DNA from: Bacteroidota bacterium
GTDB taxonomy: Bacteria; Bacteroidota; Ignavibacteria; Kryptoniales; JAKASW01
Assembly: GCA_021845665.1 (NCBI GenBank)
Contig: JAJZVO010000041.1
Span: 1 to 37,751, forward strand
Reading direction: 5' to 3'
DNA: 37,751 nucleotides
Each line of letters opens with the position of its first letter. Position 1 is the stretch's first letter. Positions 16,038 to 37,745 of the stretch are shown here, piece after piece. Made by a program: the position numbers and the translations under genes. The notes below the pieces were generated by a model. The model saw nothing but the letters and a program-made list of their open reading frames with translations. It did not search any database and was not told the origin of the DNA.

Positions 16038-17688
16038 GATTGCTGTCCTGATCCTTATCATCGTACCTGGCTCTGCTGTCAAAGGGATGTCGAATCGTGC
16101 TGCTGAAATGAACCGGGTATTTGAAGCTTATAATAAGAGCCAATACAACATGTGCGGCTTCCACATTATTGGCCACTACCTAAGCCTGCCTGGAGCGGAT
16201 CCGTCAATTAGATCCATTATGCAGACAAGGCCGAGTGATGACACCAGTATCGTGAGTCCTTCGGGGAAATTCAGGATACACTTTGATACCTCGGGGGTCA
16301 ATGAACCCGTGTTATATAATTCGAATGGGCAAGCTGAACCGGGGAGCGCATTTGCCTTCGCAGATAGCGTAGCAAAGATATGTGACTACGTCTACGACGT
16401 CGAAGTAGATTCAGTCGGCTTTCCGCCTCCGCCTTCGGATAGCGGTGCAGGCGGAGGAAACGAGTACGACATCTATATCGAAGGCCTCCCTCTCGGTGAG
16501 TACGGCTATACTGATTGGAACTCTGCGCGTCCGATCATCCAGCGTGCGAACCCCACTTATGCTACCTGGACTGTGATTAGGAACGAATTCGAGTCGACTT
16601 ATACTCAAGGGATCCCGGCGATTGAGGTGACCATCGCACATGAGTTCAACCATGCGATTCAGGTGGGTGATTACGGCGTGTGGCTGAATGACCTCTGGTT
16701 CTATGAACTTACCTCGACATGGATGGAGCAGGTGGTTTACCCGAACGTTAAGGATTACTATCAATACTTGCCGAACTTTTTCGATAATGTAAGCTCCAAG
16801 CCTTTCAATTCGTACAATCCTATTGATTATGCCGGATACGAAAGATGTGTCTTCGGAATATTCGTGCAGCATGCATATGGCGTGAAGCTGATGAAGTCCA
16901 TCTGGCAGAACTTGGCCCATGAAGAAGTCATGCCGGCCATAGAGGATGCCTTCAAATCGGATGGTGTTTCCCCCGCTGCGGCCTTTCAACTTTTCTCGGA
17001 ATGGAACTACTTTACCGGCTACCGGGCACGGCTTGCCAAAGACTTTGATGTAGCTTCATACCCCTCGGCATCTTCGTACCCGATGGCCGGGATCGAAGGA
17101 GCGGGAGGCCTGTCAACCAGCGGAGTTACCTTTTCAGGTTTAGCCCTCTCTCTGACCGAGCATTTTTTTCAGGTTAACGACGGTCCCGATACGGTTGGGT
17201 TGGCTGTTTCAAACGTCAACTTCGCTGCTGCCGTGAGTGCCGATACCACTGAATTCCCATTCTCAGTTGGGATATCTAAAGGTGGCAGCAATTGCGTGCG
17301 GCAACTCTCCGCAGGATATTGCCTCTTTTTCGATGTTCCAAATTTTACGAATTGGTCGTTGGTCCCATTTGTTTCAGGTCAAGCCCTCGTCGCCGCGCAA
17401 GATCTGGTTTTCCCTCAGCCATTTAACCCCGTCTTGGAGGAGCTTAAGATACCATATCCTTTTGCTGCGACCAATAGCGCAAGTCTTTGGATTTACGATA
17501 TTTCGGGCGATTTGATTGATAGAATTGCGGGTGATGTCCGTCTGGTCCACTATCTGAGGGGGAGCTATTTCGTCTGGGATGGTGAGACTGCAGAGGGGAA
17601 AAAAGTGGGCAGCGGTATTTATATTTATGTAGTCAGCGATGGCTCTAAAAGTGTAACAGGAAAAATAGCGGTTGTGAGGAGTCGATGA
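16015..17688 (+). CDS. secreted zinc metalloprotease (MXAN_6640-like) with C-terminal sorting domain
   Basis: Exported protein of 557 aa: a signal peptide (residues 1-~23), then a catalytic domain with zinc motif HEFNH at 209-213 and, about 15-25 residues on, a WFYELTSTWMEQ segment that probably gives the third ligand. The region EYDIYIEGLPLGEYGYT is typical of MXAN_6640-type putative metalloproteases. From about residue 464 a PQPFNP motif opens a FlgD/Por-type Ig-like domain that ends GSGIYIYVVSDG...GKIAVVRSR. This resembles type IX or FCB-type C-terminal sorting domains. It overlaps the FG-GAP gene by 23 nt and the CcmA-like gene by 4 nt. Proteolytic activity is inferred, not shown. Confidence 0.85.
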   Translation: MSRSILFRIAVLILIIVPGSAVKGMSNRAAEMNRVFEAYNKSQYNMCGFHIIGHYLSLPGADPSIRSIMQTRPSDDTSIVSPSGKFRIHFDTSGVNEPVLYNSNGQAEPGSAFAFADSVAKICDYVYDVEVDSVGFPPPPSDSGAGGGNEYDIYIEGLPLGEYGYTDWNSARPIIQRANPTYATWTVIRNEFESTYTQGIPAIEVTIAHEFNHAIQVGDYGVWLNDLWFYELTSTWMEQVVYPNVKDYYQYLPNFFDNVSSKPFNSYNPIDYAGYERCVFGIFVQHAYGVKLMKSIWQNLAHEEVMPAIEDAFKSDGVSPAAAFQLFSEWNYFTGYRARLAKDFDVASYPSASSYPMAGIEGAGGLSTSGVTFSGLALSLTEHFFQVNDGPDTVGLAVSNVNFAAAVSADTTEFPFSVGISKGGSNCVRQLSAGYCLFFDVPNFTNWSLVPFVSGQALVAAQDLVFPQPFNPVLEELKIPYPFAATNSASLWIYDISGDLIDRIAGDVRLVHYLRGSYFVWDGETAEGKKVGSGIYIYVVSDGSKSVTGKIAVVRSR

Positions 17689-18326
17689 TATTAAGCGCAA
17701 TGGGCCTGAAGAAGGTTTTCAACAGACGTGTTGTTTTCAAGGAGCTTTCGTTCGAAGCGAAGTCTGGTCAGGTATTATCGATTACAGGGCCGAATGGGAG
17801 CGGCAAATCGACGGTATCGAAGATAATTTGTGGCGTTTTGACGCCTACAGCTGGCGAGGTGGCCCTTTCAAACGGCGAAGGTAAAATTAGCCGTGAGAAA
17901 GTTCACAAACATATTGGGATGGTATCGCCCTATCTTGAGTTGTACGGCGAATTCACTGCACTTGAGAACCTCAAGATAGAGATAAAAGCTCGAATGCTGA
18001 CGAAACCGGCAGAAGAAAGGGCGCTTGAAATTCTTGACCGTGTAGGATTGTTTAGTAGAAGGAACGACGAACTCAAGGGGTTCTCGTCAGGAATGAAGCA
18101 AAGATTAAAATATGCGGCGGCCCTCATTCATGAACCCGATGTCCTTGTGCTCGATGAGCCGACCGCGAATCTTGATGTTGCCGGAACCGATATGGTGCTC
18201 TCTGTCATCGAACAGTACAGGACAGACAAGATTGTTGTACTGGCGACAAATGACGTTGAAGAGGCCGCGCTCGGCGATGTTAAGGTGGTGCTTCAGAGGA
18301 AGTTAGGCGAAGGCAATGAAAAGTGA
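17685..18326 (+). CDS. ccmA: ABC transporter ATPase, probable heme exporter subunit CcmA
   Basis: A 213-aa ABC ATPase. Walker [10 protein letters not shown] (35-43), signature FSSGMKQ (133-139) and Walker B VLVLDEPT (153-160) are intact. The small size, the SSGMKQRL signature and the presence of ccmBCDEF in the same window point to CcmA, the ATPase that drives release of holo-CcmE from CcmC/CcmD with CcmB. No other ccmA candidate is present. Unusually, it is not next to ccmB: it is on the opposite strand, 7 kb away, just upstream of copA, with ATGA coupling to the metalloprotease gene before it. An unrelated ABC exporter ATPase is the alternative. Confidence 0.75.
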
Positions 18327-20622
18327 TTCTAATATATTGGGAAATGAAAAGAAGGGAAGAATAAAACTTACCCTTCCTGTTCAGGGAATGACCTGCGCGA
18401 GCTGCGTGCTCCGGGTCGAGAACGCCCTGAAAGGAGTCGACGGGGTGGATTCTGCTGTGGTAAACCTTGCGACCGAGTCTGCCACGGTGGAAATTGAGCC
18501 TGAAAAGGTAGACGTAGACACACTGCGTACCGCCGTCGAAGATGTTGGGTACAAAATCATCGATACTGCAGATGAAGTTGATGCGCTCAAAGCGGAGGCT
18601 GAGGCGCGTGAGAAGGAATATCGGGGACTGTGGCGTAAGTTCACTGTCGGCGTTGCGCTTGCAGTCCCGATACTCGTGGGTAGTATGCCGGAAGTAATTC
18701 CGTTCGTGAACGCTGTCCCGGAGAGGTCCAGAGCATTTATTCTGATGCTACTGACAATACCCGTGATGTCCTACGTGGGCGGTCGTTTCTTCAAAGGCTT
18801 CTGGTCGGCAATGAAACACAAAACCGCGGACATGAATACCCTGGTCGCAGTAGGCACGGCATCCGCGTTCATCTACAGCACGGTTGCGGCCATCTGGCCC
18901 CGCGTGTTTGCAGCGGCGGGAAGCGCTCCTCAAACTTACTTCGATACCAGCGCGGTCATTATCGTCCTGGTACTTCTCGGAAAGATTCTTGAAGCGAGGG
19001 CTAAATGGAAATCTTCCGAGGCGGTGAGAAAACTAATGGCCCTCCAGCCTGCGGTAGCCCGAATGCTTATGGATGGAGCTGAAGTGGAGTTGCCATTGAC
19101 CGCCGTTCAGGTGGGTAGTGTGCTCAGAGTCAGACCCGGCGAACGAATCCCGGTCGATGGGAAAATACTCGAAGGTTTTTCCATGGTTGACGAATCGATG
19201 GTTACCGGTGAGAGCATCCCTGTGGAACGTACGGTGGGGAGCGCTGTCTTGGGTGGTACAGTTTGTCTCGACGGCGTGATGACCATCAAAGCTGAGAAGA
19301 TAGGGAAGGAGAGTTTCATAACTCGCATCGCTTCTCTCGTGGAAGAAGCGCAGACTTCAAAGCCTCCGGTTCAAAGGCTTGCCGACAAAGTGGCTTCAGT
19401 CTTCGTTCCTTCTGTGATAGTGGCGGCTCTCGTGAGCGCAACTCTCTGGGCGCTGCTGGGTCCTTCTCCCATTCTTGTGCATTCGCTTATGGCTTTTGTC
19501 GCGGTGCTGATAATTGCATGCCCATGTGCGCTCGGTCTAGCCACTCCGACCGCCATAATGGTCGGCACCGGGCGGGGAGCCGAGATGGGCATCCTTGTCC
19601 GAAGCAGTGAGTCGCTTGAACAGGCCAGAAAAGTTACCAGCGTCGTTTTCGACAAGACCGGCACGGTCACCGCAGGCGAAATGAGAGTCGTGGATACTGT
19701 TCTGCTGGACAGCGTCTCCGAAGACGCACTTCTGAGGCTTGCAGCATATGCCGAAGTGAACTCGGAACATCCGATTGCAAAAGCGATCGTTGATGAAGTG
19801 AAGCACCGTGGGTTGACTGTCTCTCCGAGCATGAGTTCTGCATTCAGGAATTACGCCGGGAAAGGTGTCGAGCTCAACTTGCGCGATTCAGATGGCGGAT
19901 CGGTCGTCAGGGTAGGGAAGCTTGAGTTTGTGAAAGAGTTGACCGGTTCCCAATCCGCTGATTCCGCTGTGGGCAAAGTCGACTTGCGTACCAAGGAACT
20001 TGCGGCGACGGTTCTGTACGTATCTCGAGGAGAGAAGCTCCTCGGTGCCATTCTTGTCAGCGATTATCTGAGGGACGGTGCTGTGGAAGCCATCAAGCAA
20101 GTGAAGAAGCTCGGCTTAAAAGTGATACTCCTTACCGGAGACGGAGAAGACGCGGCAAAACGCATCGCGGGTCAGATAGGGGTTGATAAGTACTTTTCAA
20201 ATGTTCTGCCGGATGGCAAATTCGACGCGATTAAGAAACTGCAGGACTCGGGCGAGGTGGTCGCGTTTGTCGGCGACGGGATTAACGATGCGCCTGCACT
20301 TGCTCAGGCCGACCTCGGTATCGCAATGGCTACCGGGACCGATATTGCCGCGGAAGCGGCGGATATCACCCTTGTACGGAATGACCTCAATCTCGTGCCG
20401 ATGTCCATCAACTTGTCCAAACGCACGCTGAAAATAATAAAGGAGAACCTGTTCTGGGCTTTCTTCTACAACGTCTTTTTGATACCGCTCGCGGCCGGAG
20501 CGCTCTATCCGTTAACGGGTTGGCAGTTGAACCCGATGGTCGCCTCAGTTGCTATGGCTCTTAGCTCCGTCAGCGTCGTCAGTAATTCTTTGCGGCTGAA
20601 AAAGATTAAGATTAAGGCGTGA
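18316..20622 (+). CDS. copA: Cu+-exporting P-type ATPase
   Basis: P1B-type copper ATPase of 768 aa. One N-terminal heavy-metal-associated domain has C27-x-x-C30 in GMTCASC. The membrane metal site is CPC (402-404), the phosphorylation site DKTGT starts at D446, and the TGES-type actuator motif (VTGES) and the HP motif (SEHPIAKAI) are present. The C-terminal hinge [10 protein letters not shown] is intact. CPC plus the CASC domain indicates monovalent copper export from the cytoplasm, or delivery to cuproenzymes such as cytochrome oxidase. It overlaps the CcmA-like gene by 11 nt and is followed by the chaperone gene copZ, a normal copper-homeostasis pair. Confidence 0.96.
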
Positions 20623-20658
20623 ATTCAGAGAACCAGGCTCTAAATCAAGGAGTGTAGC

Positions 20659-20886
20659 GTGTTCAATATCGGATCTAAAAAGAAAATATTGACTGTCGAA
20701 GGGATGACCTGTCATCACTGTGAGATGACCGTTGAGAAAGCCCTCCTCAATATCGACGGTGTGAAAGCGGCCAAGGCCGATCACTCGACCAACACCGTCG
20801 AGGTCCAGTACAAGCCCGATCTCAACATGGATCAGGTAAAAGAGAAGATCGAAAAGGTCGGGTACAAGTTCATCTCTGCAAACTAG
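20659..20886 (+). CDS. copZ: copper chaperone, heavy-metal-associated domain
   Basis: Small 75-aa single HMA-domain protein with the metal-binding GMTCHHC motif (C18, C21) and the closing KVGYKF segment. It should carry Cu+ to CopA, whose N-terminal HMA domain is of the same family. The GTG start at 20659 is supported by AAGGAG six nt upstream. It follows copA by 36 nt and is followed by a bidirectional terminator. Confidence 0.93.
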   Translation: MFNIGSKKKILTVEGMTCHHCEMTVEKALLNIDGVKAAKADHSTNTVEVQYKPDLNMDQVKEKIEKVGYKFISAN

Positions 20887-23370: not shown

Positions 23371-23784
23371 TTAGTTGTAGCTCTTGGAGGCGCTCTGTTG
23401 AGTGGAAGCTTCCGGACCGGTTTTCGATTGGTATTTGGAGGGACATTTTGTGAGCACATTGGTCGCCTGAAACACGCCGTCCTCGTAACGCCCCTTCGCT
23501 ACTATGTTGGGCGCTATCTCAAAATTGTTCGGCTTTGCTCCCGCGAGTACAACAGGCAGTATTGTGTGGTGGTCATCCACCATGTAGAAGTGAAATGTGT
23601 TTGTCGTCGGATCATAGAAGGTCTTCATCGTCTTCACCCACGAACCCTTCACCTGAACTGTCCTGTGTGTCTGCTCCGCGACCTTTGCAGAAACGTAAGC
23701 AATATTATTTTGCATGAACGAAATCGCGCCGAATACTACGAACGCCGCGATGACTACACCACCGATTATATATTTTGCCTTCAT
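23371..23784 (-). CDS. ccmE: heme chaperone CcmE, cysteine (CxxxY) type
   Basis: Periplasmic heme chaperone of 137 aa, anchored by an N-terminal membrane segment (residues 5-23), with an OB-fold domain (VQVKGSWVKT, FYMVDD, VAKGRYEDGVFQATNVL). The heme attachment motif reads CPSKY (C114-Y118) where the classical enzyme has HxxxY. This Cys variant is known from Desulfovibrio and archaea, in Ccm systems lacking CcmG and CcmH. AAAGGAG precedes the ATG. The start overlaps the ccmD stop. The C-terminal tail is Ser/Gln/Thr-rich and probably disordered. Confidence 0.93.
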   Translation of the reverse strand: MKAKYIIGGVVIAAFVVFGAISFMQNNIAYVSAKVAEQTHRTVQVKGSWVKTMKTFYDPTTNTFHFYMVDDHHTILPVVLAGAKPNNFEIAPNIVAKGRYEDGVFQATNVLTKCPSKYQSKTGPEASTQQSASKSYN

Positions 23785-23942: not shown

Positions 23943-24623
23943 TTATTCGATCTCCGAATGATTGTTGTATGACAATATGCCGACTTTGGACCTCAGGTTG
24001 AACAGCCAGATATAAAGAAAAGTAAATCCGAGAAGGGAAGCGTAAAAGACATACCGCATGCTCGCTTCCATGTACATCTTACCGTTCGCGTTGAGGATCG
24101 GTGCGGGCGAACCTTCACCCGGATGTAACCCCGTCATCAGCCTCGGCATTATAAAAACAAAGAACGGAACTGTTACGAAAGCCACAATGGAATAAACGGC
24201 CGAAAGGGTGGCCCTTCTCTCCTCAACCTCGATGGCGCTGCGGAGAGAGAAATAAGCGCCGTAAATCAGCAGAAGAACGAAGATCGAAGTTTCCCTCGGG
24301 TCCCAGTTCCAAAAACTTCCCCAGCTGAATCGTGCCCATATCGAACCGGTCAGTGTCGCGAGTATGCTGAACGCGAATCCCAATTCAGCGGCGGAAGCGG
24401 ATTTGATGTCGTGCTTCATGTCCTTCCTTCTGAGGTACATGATTCCGTACCACATCGACATGAAGAAAGCAAGTACGGCCAGCCATGACATCGGAACATG
24501 GAAATAAATAATCCTTGCCTTTGCTCCAAGACCCGGTATGTGGCCGATCGGCATAGAAATCCCTACCACAAGCACGGCTGCAATCCACACACCGATAGCT
24601 ATTTTCATCCAGCTCTTCTTCAT
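23943..24623 (-). CDS. ccmC: heme exporter/handling protein CcmC
   Basis: Six-helix membrane protein of 226 aa that loads heme onto CcmE. The WWD motif is at about 101-109 (WGSFWNWDP). The two heme-ligand histidines are visible at H42 (YFHVPMSW) and H167 (GLHPGEG). GGAGGGATTAG precedes the ATG, and the ccmB stop ends immediately before it. The adjacent ccmD and ccmE genes match the biochemical CcmCDE unit. Confidence 0.95.
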   Translation of the reverse strand: MKKSWMKIAIGVWIAAVLVVGISMPIGHIPGLGAKARIIYFHVPMSWLAVLAFFMSMWYGIMYLRRKDMKHDIKSASAAELGFAFSILATLTGSIWARFSWGSFWNWDPRETSIFVLLLIYGAYFSLRSAIEVEERRATLSAVYSIVAFVTVPFFVFIMPRLMTGLHPGEGSPAPILNANGKMYMEASMRYVFYASLLGFTFLYIWLFNLRSKVGILSYNNHSEIE

Positions 24624-25346
24624 CTAATCCCTCCAAACAAAATCGAATAACATAACTGAAACGGTTGTAACGACAACACAGTATGAGAGGAGTATCTTAA
24701 AATCCCCCGCCGCTTCCCCAAAAGTCGCTCCTTCAACTGATAACCTTGTAGCATCAATCACGCCCATTAGAAGTGGCAACAAAATTGGAAACGAAAGCAC
24801 AGGATACAGAGTTCCTTTTGAATTTGCCTTAGATATGATCGCAGCGATGAACGTCGATGCCGCCGAGAGACCGAATGTTCCCATTACCACGGTGATGAGG
24901 AAAATCAACGGAGATTTGACGACGAAGGACGGCATGGTTAGCATATATGCCACGATTATCATCAGGTTCAAAACGTATATGAGCAGGGAATTGAACAGGA
25001 GCTTACCGACAAGAACGGATGACGGTTCAACCCACAACTGTAATGTCATGGTCGTGCCGCGCTCCTCCTCGCTGACGAAAGAGCGTGAAAGTCCGCTCAT
25101 TGCGGCAAAGAATACGATTATCCATAAGATGCCTGCCGATAGGCTGGGAGATACCGTCTCGCCGGCAGTCGAAAAAAGGATAATAGAAAGCGTGACCACG
25201 ACGAACATTATCAGCGAGTTCAGTGCGTACCGTGTTCTTAGCTCGCTGTTAAGATCTTTGCTGAATATTGCTACGGCACCTCTCATTGGTGATAAGATAG
25301 GCCTCAACCGCTTCATCTTCAAGGAGCTACAGTCGCTCCCTGGCAT
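24624..25346 (-). CDS. ccmB: heme exporter membrane protein CcmB
   Basis: Membrane subunit of the CcmAB ABC transporter, with six hydrophobic segments and the family's opening pattern AVAIFSKDLNSELRTRYALNS. The longest frame gives 240 aa. Starts at 25316 or 25286 (residues 11 and 21) would give 230 or 220 aa, and 220 matches the E. coli protein. None of the three has a strong ribosome-binding site, so the start is uncertain. It is the first gene of ccmBCDEF. Its ATPase partner, ccmA, is not adjacent, but a candidate lies at 17685-18326 on the other strand. Confidence 0.9.
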   Translation of the reverse strand: MPGSDCSSLKMKRLRPILSPMRGAVAIFSKDLNSELRTRYALNSLIMFVVVTLSIILFSTAGETVSPSLSAGILWIIVFFAAMSGLSRSFVSEEERGTTMTLQLWVEPSSVLVGKLLFNSLLIYVLNLMIIVAYMLTMPSFVVKSPLIFLITVVMGTFGLSAASTFIAAIISKANSKGTLYPVLSFPILLPLLMGVIDATRLSVEGATFGEAAGDFKILLSYCVVVTTVSVMLFDFVWRD

Positions 25347-25440: not shown

Positions 25441-25555
<115 letters not shown>

Positions 25556-25590
25556 TGCCCGCACAGTCGGCTAAGCTGTTTAGAACCTCT

Positions 25591-25680
25591 GGCGAGGTGC
25601 GAGAGTGGTTGAATCGGCCGGTCTCGAAAACCGGAATACCCTTCGGGGTATCGAGGGTTCGAATCCCTCCCTCTCCGCCA
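25591..25680 (+). tRNA. tRNA-Ser (anticodon CGA)
   Basis: A 90-nt class II tRNA with encoded CCA. Anticodon stem CCGGT/ACCGG encloses loop CTCGAAA, anticodon CGA at 25625-25627, reading UCG. The variable arm is TACCC-TTC-GGGGTA-like; T-loop TTCGAAT. The acceptor stem GGCGAGG against CCTCTCC has a C-U mismatch at the third pair, where the neighbouring serine tRNA has A-U. Its first ~27 nt are otherwise nearly identical to that tRNA. Confidence 0.95.
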
Positions 25681-31654: not shown

Positions 31655-32578
31655 ATGGAAACGCTCGATTGCGCGGTTATCTACGAATGGGAATACGATA
31701 ATGATTTCGTCTCCATATTGTCTGGCAAGCTGACGGCGCTGGGCATACCGCATAGAGTCTTCCACGCCGCCGAGCTTAAGGGCGTCCTCGCGCAGGTCAG
31801 GGAGAAGGATCTGCACTTCAGCTGCGTGCTGGATCGCGCCTCGGACGTCGACGACGATGCAGAGGCTCTCGTCAGTATCTTGAGGCGGAGAGGAGCTTGT
31901 ATCGTAAACGACCCGGTCGAGATACGCCACGCGTCAGATAAGGCTTCCATGCATCTCGAGTTCATAACGGCAGGGATTTACGTACCATATACCATTATCA
32001 TTTCTCCCTATAACGCACAGAGAGAAGTCAAGCTAAGTATCGGCGAACTGGCTCGGCTGGGACGTCCGTTCATTATCAAGCCGGCCAACACTACCGGCGG
32101 GGGAATAGGAGTAGTCACTGGTGCGGAGGGCCTCCAGGAGGTTATCGAGACCAGAAAGCATCACAAAGACGACAAATATCTGTTGCAGAAAAAGATCGAG
32201 CCCGTTCGTACGAATGGGCGCCGTGCCTGGTTCAGACCCTTCTACGTTTTCGGAAATGTCGTTATCTGCTGGTGGGACGATCAAACTCACCTTTACCATC
32301 AAGCGACGGGAGAAGAGATATCTCAGCTTGCGTTGAAAGAAGTTGAAAAAATCGTTAAGAAGATATACGGCGTCTGCAAGCTGGAATTCTTTTCGACAGA
32401 AATTGCGTTGGATGAAGAGGGAAAATTTATCGTCATAGATTATGTCAATGAGATGTGTGATATGAGAATAAAGTCGAAGCATTTCGACGGCGTGCCCGAT
32501 ACGGTTGTCGAAGAAATCACCGCACGATTAGCTGTCGGGATAAGGGAACTGCTGGAGCATTGGAAACAGACATCGTGA
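31655..32578 (+). CDS. ATP-grasp domain protein
   Basis: A 307-aa protein with the ATP-grasp pattern. RPFIIKPANTTGGGIGV is the lysine plus glycine-rich loop that binds ATP, DKYLLQKKIEP the hinge region, and KLEFFSTEIALDEEGKFIVIDYVNEMCDMR holds the Mg-binding Glu/Asn residues. The fold is RimK/D-Ala-D-Ala-ligase-like, so it should join a carboxylate to an amine or thiol. The substrates cannot be told. No ribosome-binding site is obvious, and the leader is short. Its end overlaps the start of the nuclease gene. There is no partner biosynthetic gene next to it, so its pathway is open. Confidence 0.85.
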   Translation: METLDCAVIYEWEYDNDFVSILSGKLTALGIPHRVFHAAELKGVLAQVREKDLHFSCVLDRASDVDDDAEALVSILRRRGACIVNDPVEIRHASDKASMHLEFITAGIYVPYTIIISPYNAQREVKLSIGELARLGRPFIIKPANTTGGGIGVVTGAEGLQEVIETRKHHKDDKYLLQKKIEPVRTNGRRAWFRPFYVFGNVVICWWDDQTHLYHQATGEEISQLALKEVEKIVKKIYGVCKLEFFSTEIALDEEGKFIVIDYVNEMCDMRIKSKHFDGVPDTVVEEITARLAVGIRELLEHWKQTS

Positions 32579-33993
32579 TATCCGACCAAGTCACTGAATA
32601 TGAAGACGACTTCAATGATGCGGTTTTTTCCGTTGTCGACATAGAAACTACCGGTGCTATGGCGGCAAACGAGCGCATTATCGAGTTCGCAGCTTACAGG
32701 GTATGCAAAGGAAAAATAGTCGACCAATATTCCACGCTCGTGAATCCCGGTAGGCACATCCCGAATTTCATTCGAAACATGACTGGTATAACCAATGAAA
32801 TGGTTTACGGTGCGCCACAGTTCAAGGACGTCGCTCTCCCTATCAGCAGGTTCCTTGCCGGATCAATCTTTGTAGCCCACAATTCTCAATTCGATTATGC
32901 TTTCGTCCGGGGTGAAATGGAGAAAGCAGGGTTCGGATTGGATATACCGCAGCTGTGTACCCGAAAACTCAGCTCAAGGGTCTTCCCACAACTTCCGAGA
33001 AAAGCGCTTGATCAGGTTTGCCACCACCTCGGCATTAAAATCAGTGGGCGTCATCGCGCCTATGGCGACGCAAGGGCGACGGCACATCTGTTAATTGAGC
33101 TGCTGGAATTCGTAAGGGAAAGGCATGAAGTAGTTACTCTGGAGGAGCTTCTCAGTTTTCAAAATGCACCTCACCGCATCGACAGACACAGGAACCAGAA
33201 CGTCTTCAAGTCGGCGATGAAAGCGGCTCCAAATGTTCCTGGCGTTTATTTGGTCCATGATTCCGATGATGAGATCATCTACGTCGGTAAGGCGAAGAAC
33301 CTGAAACTCAGGATGGCTTCATACCTGACTGAGAACGCGAGAGACGCCGCGAAGGTTCGCAAGATGCTCGGCGCCGCCCGGAGGCTCGAGTGGGAAGAGA
33401 CTTCGTCGGAACTCAGTGCCTTCCTCAGGGAGGTCCAGCTCATCCGGCGGCACCGCCCGCGGTTCAACTCTCAACTCGTGAACTCGAGGCGGTTCCCTTT
33501 TATCAAGCTATCGACCGAGAGAAAGTTCGAAAGGCTCGACCTTGTCTACGAGCTTGGCGAAGAAGGCAGATACTACGGTCCATTTGAGAGCTCGTTCATC
33601 GCCGAGCAAGTCCTTTACGCGGCGGACAAGTATTTCAAGCTTGTGAAATGCGAAAATGATTTTCTTGAGCCATTCGATCCGTGTCTCTATTTCTATATCG
33701 ACAGGTGTGCCGCACCTTGCAGGGGAGAAATCACTACCGAGAGTTATAATCTCGAAGTCGAAGCAGCCGAGGAATTCCTCTGCGGCTCGTTCGAGAAACT
33801 GACCGGTGAGCTGCGCATTAGACTCGATGAGTTGTCGAAGAAGCTCGAATTCGAAGATGCGGCCGTCGCACGGGATCTGATTGAGATACTCGAGCGGACA
33901 TCATCAAAACTGCGCCTTCTAAACGGTCCGATAAGTAAGGCCAACTTCATCTGCGGCTGGAAAACCAACGGTATCATTGAATTGTATAGGTGA
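32560..33993 (+). CDS. DEDDh exonuclease fused to GIY-YIG/UVR (UvrC-like) nuclease, N-terminal part
   Basis: Two nuclease modules in one 477-aa protein. An N-terminal DNA polymerase III epsilon-like exonuclease has D27 and E29 (VVDIETTG), D112 (NSQFD), H165 and D170 (GRHRAYGD). A UvrC-type GIY-YIG domain has GVY at 228-230, YVG at 241-243 and R251. A UVR-like helical segment (FEDAAVARDLIEIL) follows near 415-430. Such fusions are known in actinobacteria and others and act in repair. The TTG start at 32560 is used; a GTG at 32575, overlapping the upstream stop as GTGA, is equally possible. The protein stops just after a C-terminal strand (GIIELYR), and the next frame continues it (see next entry). 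Confidence 0.88.
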   Translation: METDIVISDQVTEYEDDFNDAVFSVVDIETTGAMAANERIIEFAAYRVCKGKIVDQYSTLVNPGRHIPNFIRNMTGITNEMVYGAPQFKDVALPISRFLAGSIFVAHNSQFDYAFVRGEMEKAGFGLDIPQLCTRKLSSRVFPQLPRKALDQVCHHLGIKISGRHRAYGDARATAHLLIELLEFVRERHEVVTLEELLSFQNAPHRIDRHRNQNVFKSAMKAAPNVPGVYLVHDSDDEIIYVGKAKNLKLRMASYLTENARDAAKVRKMLGAARRLEWEETSSELSAFLREVQLIRRHRPRFNSQLVNSRRFPFIKLSTERKFERLDLVYELGEEGRYYGPFESSFIAEQVLYAADKYFKLVKCENDFLEPFDPCLYFYIDRCAAPCRGEITTESYNLEVEAAEEFLCGSFEKLTGELRIRLDELSKKLEFEDAAVARDLIEILERTSSKLRLLNGPISKANFICGWKTNGIIELYR

Positions 33994-35498: not shown

Positions 35499-37745
35499 AT
35501 GCCCGGGTGTGAAGGCAGACGAGAATTCCAGATTTCGAGGAAGGCCAGAGAACAATTCAGGTTCGATGATACCTTCTTCTCAATAACAGGAGACATCCTG
35601 CTGGTTAATCCGCAGGCGGCACAACTCTTCGCGACCGAGCTGAACGACAAGCGAAAGAAAGAAATCGGCAGAGGGAGGAAGCGACATCTTGCTTCGTCCT
35701 CTCCTGTGACCGCAAGTGAAATAAATGCGATGGGACTCTTCCACGAGGTACTTCACTTTATCATAGCCAGCTATGAGAAAAACGTTAACCGGCAAGTGTT
35801 CGACAAACTGGACAACTGGTTGTCCGGACAGATAGGGAAAAAGGATCTCTCCGGTCTGCAGCATACTTTCCTGGACTTATTTCCCCCGACTCCTGTATTT
35901 CGTAACGAAGTAAATGCCGAGACTTTTTTATCCGGAAACGACTTCGGTCTGAACGGAAGACGGGTCGTGTTCGAAGAGCTCATCCTGCTCTGGCTTCAGA
36001 ATAGAAATCCTGCCTTCGATGCAATTGCGGATCTCATCGATGACTCGGCTCTCGACGAAAGGAGCGCGTATGAGAAAGCCCTCGCGGCGACAAATGTCTT
36101 CTTCGATACCCAGCCGGGGTACGGTCCTGCCGATTCGCCTCTCCTGAAAATGCTTCTCGCCCCGATACAAGCTAGTCCGGAGTCGATCTCCGGCCAGCTC
36201 CAGTTCATCGTTGAAAATTGGGGGGACATTCTGAAGGACTCTCCATTCCTGACAAGAATACTACGGGCAATCGATTTCGTGAAGGAGGAAGGGAAGTATT
36301 TCATGATGCTCGCGCAGGCACAGGCGGACAAAGCAAAAATTCCGAATGTCCGCAGGCCAGGCTTCGAAGGATTTGGCGAACGGGCATCCGAACCTGTGCT
36401 GAAATTCCGGGGCACGGGCGCCGAGTACGAACCCGAGAACTTCAGTGCCGACCTGGGCTGGATGCCGCGACTTGTGTTGATTGCAAAAAATGTATTCGTG
36501 TGGCTTGATCAGCTGAGTAAGAAATACCGCAGGCAAATCGACAGGCTCGATCTCATCCCGGATGAGGAACTGGAGACCATCGCGCACCGCGGCTTCACCG
36601 GACTATGGCTCATCGGGATATGGAAACGCAGCGAAGCGTCTCGCAAAATCAAGCATCTTAACGGCAATCCTGACGCGATTGCCTCCGCCTATTCGCTCGA
36701 TGCCTATGAAATAGCCTCGGAATTGGGAGGCGATCAGTCTTACCGCAATCTAAAAGATAGAGCCTGGCGCCATGGAGTCCGGCTTGCCAGTGACATGGTC
36801 CCTAACCACATGGGAATCGACTCCACGTGGTTGATTAACCACCCCGACTGGTTCCTTTCCTCCGAATATCCGCCCTATCCCAATTATTCTTTTAATGGTC
36901 CTGATCTTAGCGGTGACGAACGGGTTGGAATTTTCATTGAAGATGGATACTGGAGCAAGCGGGATGCATCGGTTGTATTCAAGAGGCTCGATAGGTGGAC
37001 TGGAGAAGTGAGGCACGTCTATCATGGCAACGACGGAACGCACATGCCCTGGAACGACACGGCTCAGCTCGATTTCACAAAACCTGAAGTCAGGGAAGCT
37101 GTGATACAGAGAATTCTCCACGTGGCTAAGATGTTTCCAATAATCAGGTTCGATGCCGCGATGGTTCTTAGCAAGAAACATTATCAACGGCTTTGGTTCC
37201 CCGAGCCGGGTACCGGAGGCGCGATCCCCTCCCGTTCCAATTTCTCGATGACAAAGGAGGAATTTGATACTGTTATGCCCGTCGAATTCTGGCGAGAGGT
37301 TGTGGACAGGATCCAGCATGAGGCGCCTGACACTTTACTCCTGGCCGAGGCGTTTTGGCTTATGGAAGGATACTTCGTCCGAACGCTTGGAATGCACAGG
37401 GTCTATAATAGCGCTTTCATGAACATGCTTAAACGCGAGGAGAATGGGAACTACCGTCAGGTTATCAAGAATGTTCTCGAATATAACCCGCAGATACTCA
37501 AACGATTTGTCAATTTTCTAAATAATCCTGATGAGGAGACAGCCATTGCCCAGTTCGGAAAGGATGACAAATATTTTGGTGTCTGCGTCTTAATGGCTAC
37601 GATGCCGGGGCTCCCGATGTTTGGTCACGGCCAGGTGGAAGGTCTGACGGAGAAATACGGGATGGAATTTAAACGAGCCTATCGTGACGAAAGAGAGGAT
37701 GAGAGCCTCGTTGCCAGGCACGACAGAGAGATTTTCCACTCTTGA
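35499..37745 (+). CDS. GH13 alpha-glucan-acting enzyme with unusual N-terminal domain, frameshifted near the window edge
   Basis: The visible frame is 748 aa. From about residue 320 it is a GH13 barrel: region I DMVPNH (D432-H437), nucleophile D552 (IIRFDAAM), acid/base E617 (LLLAEAFW) and the region IV aspartate D678 (FLNNPDEE). All catalytic residues are present. Residues 1-~320 are a separate, mostly helical domain I do not recognise, with an HEVLH string at 82-86. The frame ends EIFHS-stop. One extra C in the TTTTCC run near 37735 would give EIFPLLRM and keep the frame open to the window end. The true gene is therefore probably longer. Substrate (starch, glycogen, trehalose-type) is not deducible. 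Confidence 0.85.
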   Translation: MPGCEGRREFQISRKAREQFRFDDTFFSITGDILLVNPQAAQLFATELNDKRKKEIGRGRKRHLASSSPVTASEINAMGLFHEVLHFIIASYEKNVNRQVFDKLDNWLSGQIGKKDLSGLQHTFLDLFPPTPVFRNEVNAETFLSGNDFGLNGRRVVFEELILLWLQNRNPAFDAIADLIDDSALDERSAYEKALAATNVFFDTQPGYGPADSPLLKMLLAPIQASPESISGQLQFIVENWGDILKDSPFLTRILRAIDFVKEEGKYFMMLAQAQADKAKIPNVRRPGFEGFGERASEPVLKFRGTGAEYEPENFSADLGWMPRLVLIAKNVFVWLDQLSKKYRRQIDRLDLIPDEELETIAHRGFTGLWLIGIWKRSEASRKIKHLNGNPDAIASAYSLDAYEIASELGGDQSYRNLKDRAWRHGVRLASDMVPNHMGIDSTWLINHPDWFLSSEYPPYPNYSFNGPDLSGDERVGIFIEDGYWSKRDASVVFKRLDRWTGEVRHVYHGNDGTHMPWNDTAQLDFTKPEVREAVIQRILHVAKMFPIIRFDAAMVLSKKHYQRLWFPEPGTGGAIPSRSNFSMTKEEFDTVMPVEFWREVVDRIQHEAPDTLLLAEAFWLMEGYFVRTLGMHRVYNSAFMNMLKREENGNYRQVIKNVLEYNPQILKRFVNFLNNPDEETAIAQFGKDDKYFGVCVLMATMPGLPMFGHGQVEGLTEKYGMEFKRAYRDEREDESLVARHDREIFHS

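Follow-up and report, generated by a model that had tools for sequence, protein, structure and literature searches.

System I*, a variant cytochrome c maturation (Ccm) pathway of Desulfovibrio, was reportedly described by Allen in 2006. As related in PMC3601427, E. coli can produce cytochrome c from a Desulfovibrio operon even though CcmH, CcmG and the haem-binding His are all lacking (Goddard 2010). The FEBS J 2011 review that names the variant System I* found exactly CPSKY as the CcmE motif in 25 of 36 genomes, and the system has been reported in delta-proteobacteria, Chloroflexi and Firmicutes, with about a third of the bacteria carrying a Cys-type CcmE keeping CcmH (PMC3601427). Such a combination also occurs in the Bacillota, where plasmid p1 of Cytobacillus firmus bears ccmE-ccmF-ccmH with a CPSKY CcmE and an annotated CcmH without LRCxxC. 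A 2022 eLife paper described CcmABCEF with a CxxxY CcmE in Methanosarcina, presented this streamlined CcmH- and CcmI-free machinery as archaeal, and regarded the archaeal Ccm genes as acquired from bacteria (PMC9084895). In the searched literature, which excludes many subscription papers, we found no statement on this variant in Bacteroidota or Ignavibacteria.

Here, we analyzed a stretch of 37,751 nucleotides from a bacterium of that class (the window), which very probably encodes a cytochrome c maturation pathway of the System I* kind, reduced yet complete, consisting of CcmABCDEF with a Cys-type CcmE and working without CcmG, CcmH or CcmI, and this is the sole c-type cytochrome maturation system detected in the genome. 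As in the System I* of Desulfovibrio desulfuricans and D. vulgaris, there is a CxxxY CcmE and a CcmABCDEF set that includes CcmD, and CcmH was not found; CcmG is absent from that system and no recognizable one was seen here, with ResA/TlpA-like thioredoxins as possible stand-ins; unlike in Desulfovibrio, where a CcmI enhances the system, CcmI was not detected, ccmA is split off beside copA, and the host belongs to the FCB lineage and is not a sulfate reducer. The streamlined Ccm of Methanosarcina acetivorans (PMC9084895) shares the CxxxY CcmE, CcmABCEF and the lack of CcmH and CcmI, but has CcmF1 and CcmF2 where the window has a single CcmF, and differs from it in that CcmD (CcmD_alt) is present here. 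Compared with the classical CcmABCDEFGH of E. coli, the window has homologous CcmA, B, C, E and F, an equivalent CcmD, the same CcmE OB fold and the same four CcmF histidines, whereas the haem-binding residue is Cys instead of His and neither CcmH or CcmI nor a recognizable CcmG is seen. Since System I* has been on record for Desulfovibrio and archaea from 2006/2010 onwards, and CPSKY is its commonest published motif, we regard the locus as a known variant and not as a new kind of system.

The ccmBCDEF operon and its Cys-type CcmE

The genes ccmB, ccmC, ccmD, ccmE and ccmF form, in that order, one tightly packed minus-strand operon (Table 1), in which the ccmE start is overlapped by the ccmD stop codon. 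All five assignments of the original prediction were confirmed by Pfam matches, CcmD through an alternative family (26.6 bits against PF20077, cut-off 23.5) and with homologues occupying the corresponding position in relatives. CcmF retains the conserved H176, H263, H307 and H491, in register with H173, H261, H303 and H491 of E. coli, and its tryptophan-rich domain (WGGFWGWDPVEN) is likewise intact and in register. Promoter and terminator scans returned matches at chance level only.

Table 1. Features of the window and, in the last five rows, motif-less ccmE-like genes at related loci (locus handle before the colon)
Feature	Position	Strand	Basis or remark
ccmA, ABC transporter ATPase (predicted)	17685..18326	+	Homology and synteny; apart from the operon, joined to copA
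copA-like copper P1B ATPase	18316..20622	+	TIGR01511 1.1e-174; context, outside the Ccm machine
ccmF, haem lyase, 792 aa	20979..23357	-	Pfam CcmF_C 3.6e-26, Cytochrom_C_asm 4.3e-24
ccmE, Cys-type haem chaperone	23371..23784	-	137 aa ORF; Pfam CcmE PF03100
CPSKY codons (C114-Y118)	23431..23445	-	TGTCCCTCCAAATAC on the minus strand; invariant in relatives
ccmD, short membrane protein, about 52 aa	23785..23942	-	Alternative CcmD family, Pfam CcmD_alt PF20077
ccmC, haem-handling membrane protein	23943..24623	-	Pfam Cytochrom_C_asm 2.9e-26; TIGR01191 ccmC 8.9e-32
ccmB, ABC transporter membrane subunit	24624..25346	-	Pfam CcmB 1.2e-17
Two tRNA-Ser genes, preceding ccmB along the minus strand	25441-25680	+	
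CcmE-like, motif-less	L060:5609-6034	-	
CcmE-like, motif-less	L018:1730-2188	+	
CcmE-like, motif-less	L074:3617-3994	-	
CcmE-like, motif-less	L070:5640-6041	-	
CcmE-like, motif-less	L147:8382-8753	+	

CcmE matches PF03100 with 57.3 bits (2.1e-15, cut-off 24.6), and the plus-strand frame of the same interval encodes no CcmE. The protein comprises an N-terminal membrane helix (residues 3-26), an OB fold and a C-terminal KCPSKY in the context L-T-K-C114-P-S-K-Y118, C114 being its sole cysteine. That this motif replaces HxxxY, as initially proposed, was borne out by a MAFFT alignment with E. coli CcmE and seven more His-type (HxxxY) proteins, in which C114 and Y118 share columns with His130 and Tyr134, the haem-binding residues of the E. 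coli protein, and with the His and Tyr of the HDENY, HDETY or HDEKY motifs of E. coli, Legionella, Xanthomonas, Caballeronia, Paracoccus and Sinorhizobium. A profile alignment to PDB entries 2KCT (D. vulgaris, KCP) and 1SR3/8CE8 (E. coli) gave an identical register, and neither alignment placed a His elsewhere in the motif. A single-sequence phmmer search of the PDB sequences gave no match, and a profile built from 15 relatives matched 2KCT, 1SR3, 8CE8 and 1J6Q; the AlphaFold2 model (mean pLDDT 85) had CcmE structures as its best PDB matches. Relatives of the protein on plasmids were sought by tblastn and none was found.

C114-P-S-K-Y is invariant in an alignment of 27 sequences composed of the window CcmE and named relatives, the latter collected through the KCPSKY pattern itself. 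Additionally, every profile-found CcmE that was read, in 127 genomes of the relative and phylum samples (counted by hand), carries CPS[KR]Y; two genomes from a single family have CPSRY and all others CPSKY. The Cys motif is therefore not a chance variant.

Judging by the alignment with His-type CcmE and by what has been published for D. desulfuricans and Methanosarcina, C114 would hold a haem vinyl group and Y118 would likely ligate the iron, in place of His130 and Tyr134. CcmC and CcmD would load haem onto CcmE at the outer face of the inner membrane, CcmAB would free holo-CcmE using ATP, and CcmF would then take over the haem and, with no CcmH partner, attach it to apocytochromes bearing CxxCH. 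Reduction of the CxxCH thiols, if needed, would be provided by DsbD/CcdA-type proteins and ResA/TlpA-like thioredoxins from other loci. The thio-linkage through C114 is probably covalent by the same analogy, although even for the type case this point is contested, since the CcmE of D. vulgaris was reported to bind ferric haem non-covalently via C127 (PMC3884852).

A separate ccmA candidate beside a copper ATPase

The ATPase gene initially put forward as ccmA is located on the opposite strand, roughly 6 kb away from ccmB, and overlaps the copA-like gene. TIGR01189, tried as the only identifier, gave 48 matches, none of them above the cut-off and with the window candidate ranked fifth; because this model does not discriminate, the call had to draw on synteny and homology in relatives. 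The candidate shares 43-49% identity with ATPases whose genes neighbour ccmB in several other families, and 47-49% with those whose genes immediately precede it; the ccmA-copA-copZ layout recurs in two relatives of the genus (L194 and L195) and in a close relative (L098). As its homologue directly precedes ccmB in relatives, the case for predicting this ATPase to be CcmA is convincing, and the candidate could be upheld.

Together with the copA-like gene and a gene for a small HMA (CopZ-like) protein, ccmA makes up one plus-strand cluster (17685-20883) that faces ccmBCDEF and is kept in the genus. In other families (L061, L063) copA is also found near ccmF. The proximity of copA to ccmA and to ccmF hints at a link between copper and haem through terminal oxidase assembly.

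Elsewhere on the plus strand of the window, positions 35499-37745 encode a protein of 748 aa that has an alpha-amylase catalytic domain at its C-terminus, preceded by a long N-terminal portion to which no Pfam family matches, and positions 32560-33993 encode a DnaQ-type exonuclease fused to a GIY-YIG/UvrC-like nuclease.

Missing components and alternative readings

Family profile searches of the draft genome (135 contigs, 95.6% completeness) gave no match to CcmH (PF03918), CcmI (TIGR03142) or ResB (PF05140); as a control, PF03918 was detected in E. coli, Caulobacter, Thermus and Deinobacterium. No thioredoxin of CcmG/DsbE grade was found either, the best one reaching 57 bits against a TIGR00385 cut-off of 123, and the membrane-anchored candidate scored 130 bits as ResA compared with 52 bits as DsbE. 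Since ResA/TlpA-like thioredoxins do occur in the genome, and could act as CcmG, the absence of CcmG stays soft. Other possible reductant carriers are two DsbD-like proteins and one weak CcdA-like protein. Substrates for the pathway are present, with 13 Cytochrome_CBB3 matches and CxxCH in at least 8 ORFs. A CcmH that has diverged strongly, or an unrelated protein acting in its place, could still be encoded.

The genome thus carries what characterizes System I*, namely CcmA, B, C, D and F, a CxxxY CcmE that groups with other Cys-type CcmE and away from the His type, and no CcmH, and neither the HxxxY, CcmG and CcmH of classical System I nor the ResB/CcsB of System II was seen. Of the predicted lack of ccmG, ccmH and ccmI, the parts on ccmH and ccmI stood and the part on ccmG is less firm. 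The association of a Cys-type CcmE with pathways free of CcmG and CcmH holds here but is not restrictive, given the published cases and the Cytobacillus plasmid mentioned above, and the proposal that an FCB-type organism may use the reduced pathway is supported by the gene content and the absence of CcmH and CcmI.

A classical nine-component System I, in which CcmG, CcmH and CcmI are encoded elsewhere or were lost in assembly gaps and the CcmE cysteine is a mere motif variant, would be compatible with the draft state of the genome and with the known coexistence of Cys-type CcmE and CcmH. However, 12 further genomes of the genus gave only weak zinc-ribbon matches to CcmH, and no genuine CcmH was found in 247 genomes of the phylum; an assembly gap cannot account for an absence repeated in this way and accompanied by that of CcmI from the genome under study, and the hidden classical system is largely refuted and very unlikely. 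We also consider it improbable, though somewhat less so, that the role of CcmH is kept by an unrecognized protein. Two such proteins come into question, zinc-ribbon membrane proteins whose CxCxxC tail scores 20-30 bits against PF03918 in a small number of genomes, and a motif-less CcmE-like protein found within the ccm operon in several families, but neither was detected in this genome, the zinc-ribbon genes whose surroundings were read are not at ccm, and the Desulfovibrio System I* functions in E. coli without CcmH and CcmG, according to PMC3601427.

Maturation of the cytochromes by System II (CcsBA/ResB), with the Ccm genes serving another haem-export role, is scarcely credible. The C-terminus of CcmF is ResB-like and accounts for most of the apparent, weak ResB matches in relatives, and one member of the class (G057) has a stronger ResB match; against this, ResB is missing from the genome under study, and its CcmF keeps all four conserved histidines and the tryptophan-rich domain.

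Distribution in relatives and across the phylum

The reduced, System I*-type pathway extends well beyond this organism. A family profile search found CcmE in 57 of 61 relatives and in 161 of the 247 phylum genomes (all at least 90% complete), and genuine CcmH in none of 60 relatives and none of the 247. Weak matches to the CcmH profile appeared in 3 of the 61 relatives and 7 of the 247 phylum genomes; those read in relatives proved to be zinc-ribbon membrane proteins with a CxCxxC tail and not CcmH, and the remaining ones among the phylum seven were dismissed because they scored low (20-30 bits) and their coverage was partial. An HKNLF at one locus (L112), picked up by a regular expression, was an artefact located upstream of the true KCPSKY.

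Zinc-ribbon membrane proteins with this CcmH-like tail were noted at L031, L032, L033, L034, L051-L055 and L057, for the last six on the basis of the match range, and the genes at L031, L032 and L034 adjoin an FtsX-like permease gene.

The nearest named loci come from Ignavibacteria/Bacteroidetes metagenome-assembled genomes, and the closest CcmE among them, of "Bacteroidetes bacterium FK_Sedi_A_Bin.46", is 77% identical; these 80 loci were chosen by the L[TVM]KCPSKY pattern and were kept out of estimates of Cys frequency. In a maximum-likelihood tree of both CcmE types, built without Desulfovibrio and archaeal CcmE, all sampled Bacteroidota fall into one group (100/95), the Cys types of Calditrichota, Zixibacteria and Acidobacteria stand beside it, and eight His types separate at 100/98. 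The broad pattern of the tree tracks taxonomy, which suggests that CcmE was inherited mainly vertically in the phylum.

A Cys-type CcmE without CcmH is therefore the rule across the phylum and not a peculiarity of this organism, and a very large, well-sampled phylum is added to those using the CcmH-less Cys-type route. Its culturable members, among them Melioribacter roseus, where proteomics found CcmF among the proteins responding to aerobic growth (PMC5492636), make two questions testable, namely how CcmF attaches haem to CxxCH in the absence of CcmH, and how the CcmE-haem bond, of thioether type, is subsequently cleaved.

In several families of the class Ignavibacteria, a CcmE-like protein of about 115-150 aa, without CxxxY and ending in GHxH...FHA, is encoded directly between ccmE and ccmF (Table 1), while in two genomes (G029 and G047) its gene lies elsewhere. 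The one protein tested against Pfam had no significant match. A profile search of 149 class genomes found clear copies in five families (f5, f8, f12, f15 and f53) and none in the genus of the window, many of the weaker matches being CcmE itself. This protein is possibly an extra Ccm component. More tentatively, and with the odds slightly against it, System I* may be the ancestral and essentially exclusive form of Ccm throughout Bacteroidota sensu lato (Ignavibacteria and sister classes), relying on a Cys-type CcmE and operating without CcmH throughout, to which several lineages added the motif-less CcmE-like OB-fold protein, maybe to take over part of the haem hand-off of CcmH.

Some class families also have longer CcmC frames, of 325-392 aa compared with 226 aa in the window (L060:6540-7715, minus; L068:4674-5729, plus; L073:1791-2765, plus; L074:4581-5663, minus). 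The added piece, without a Pfam match in L060, amounts to about 100 residues near the N-terminus.
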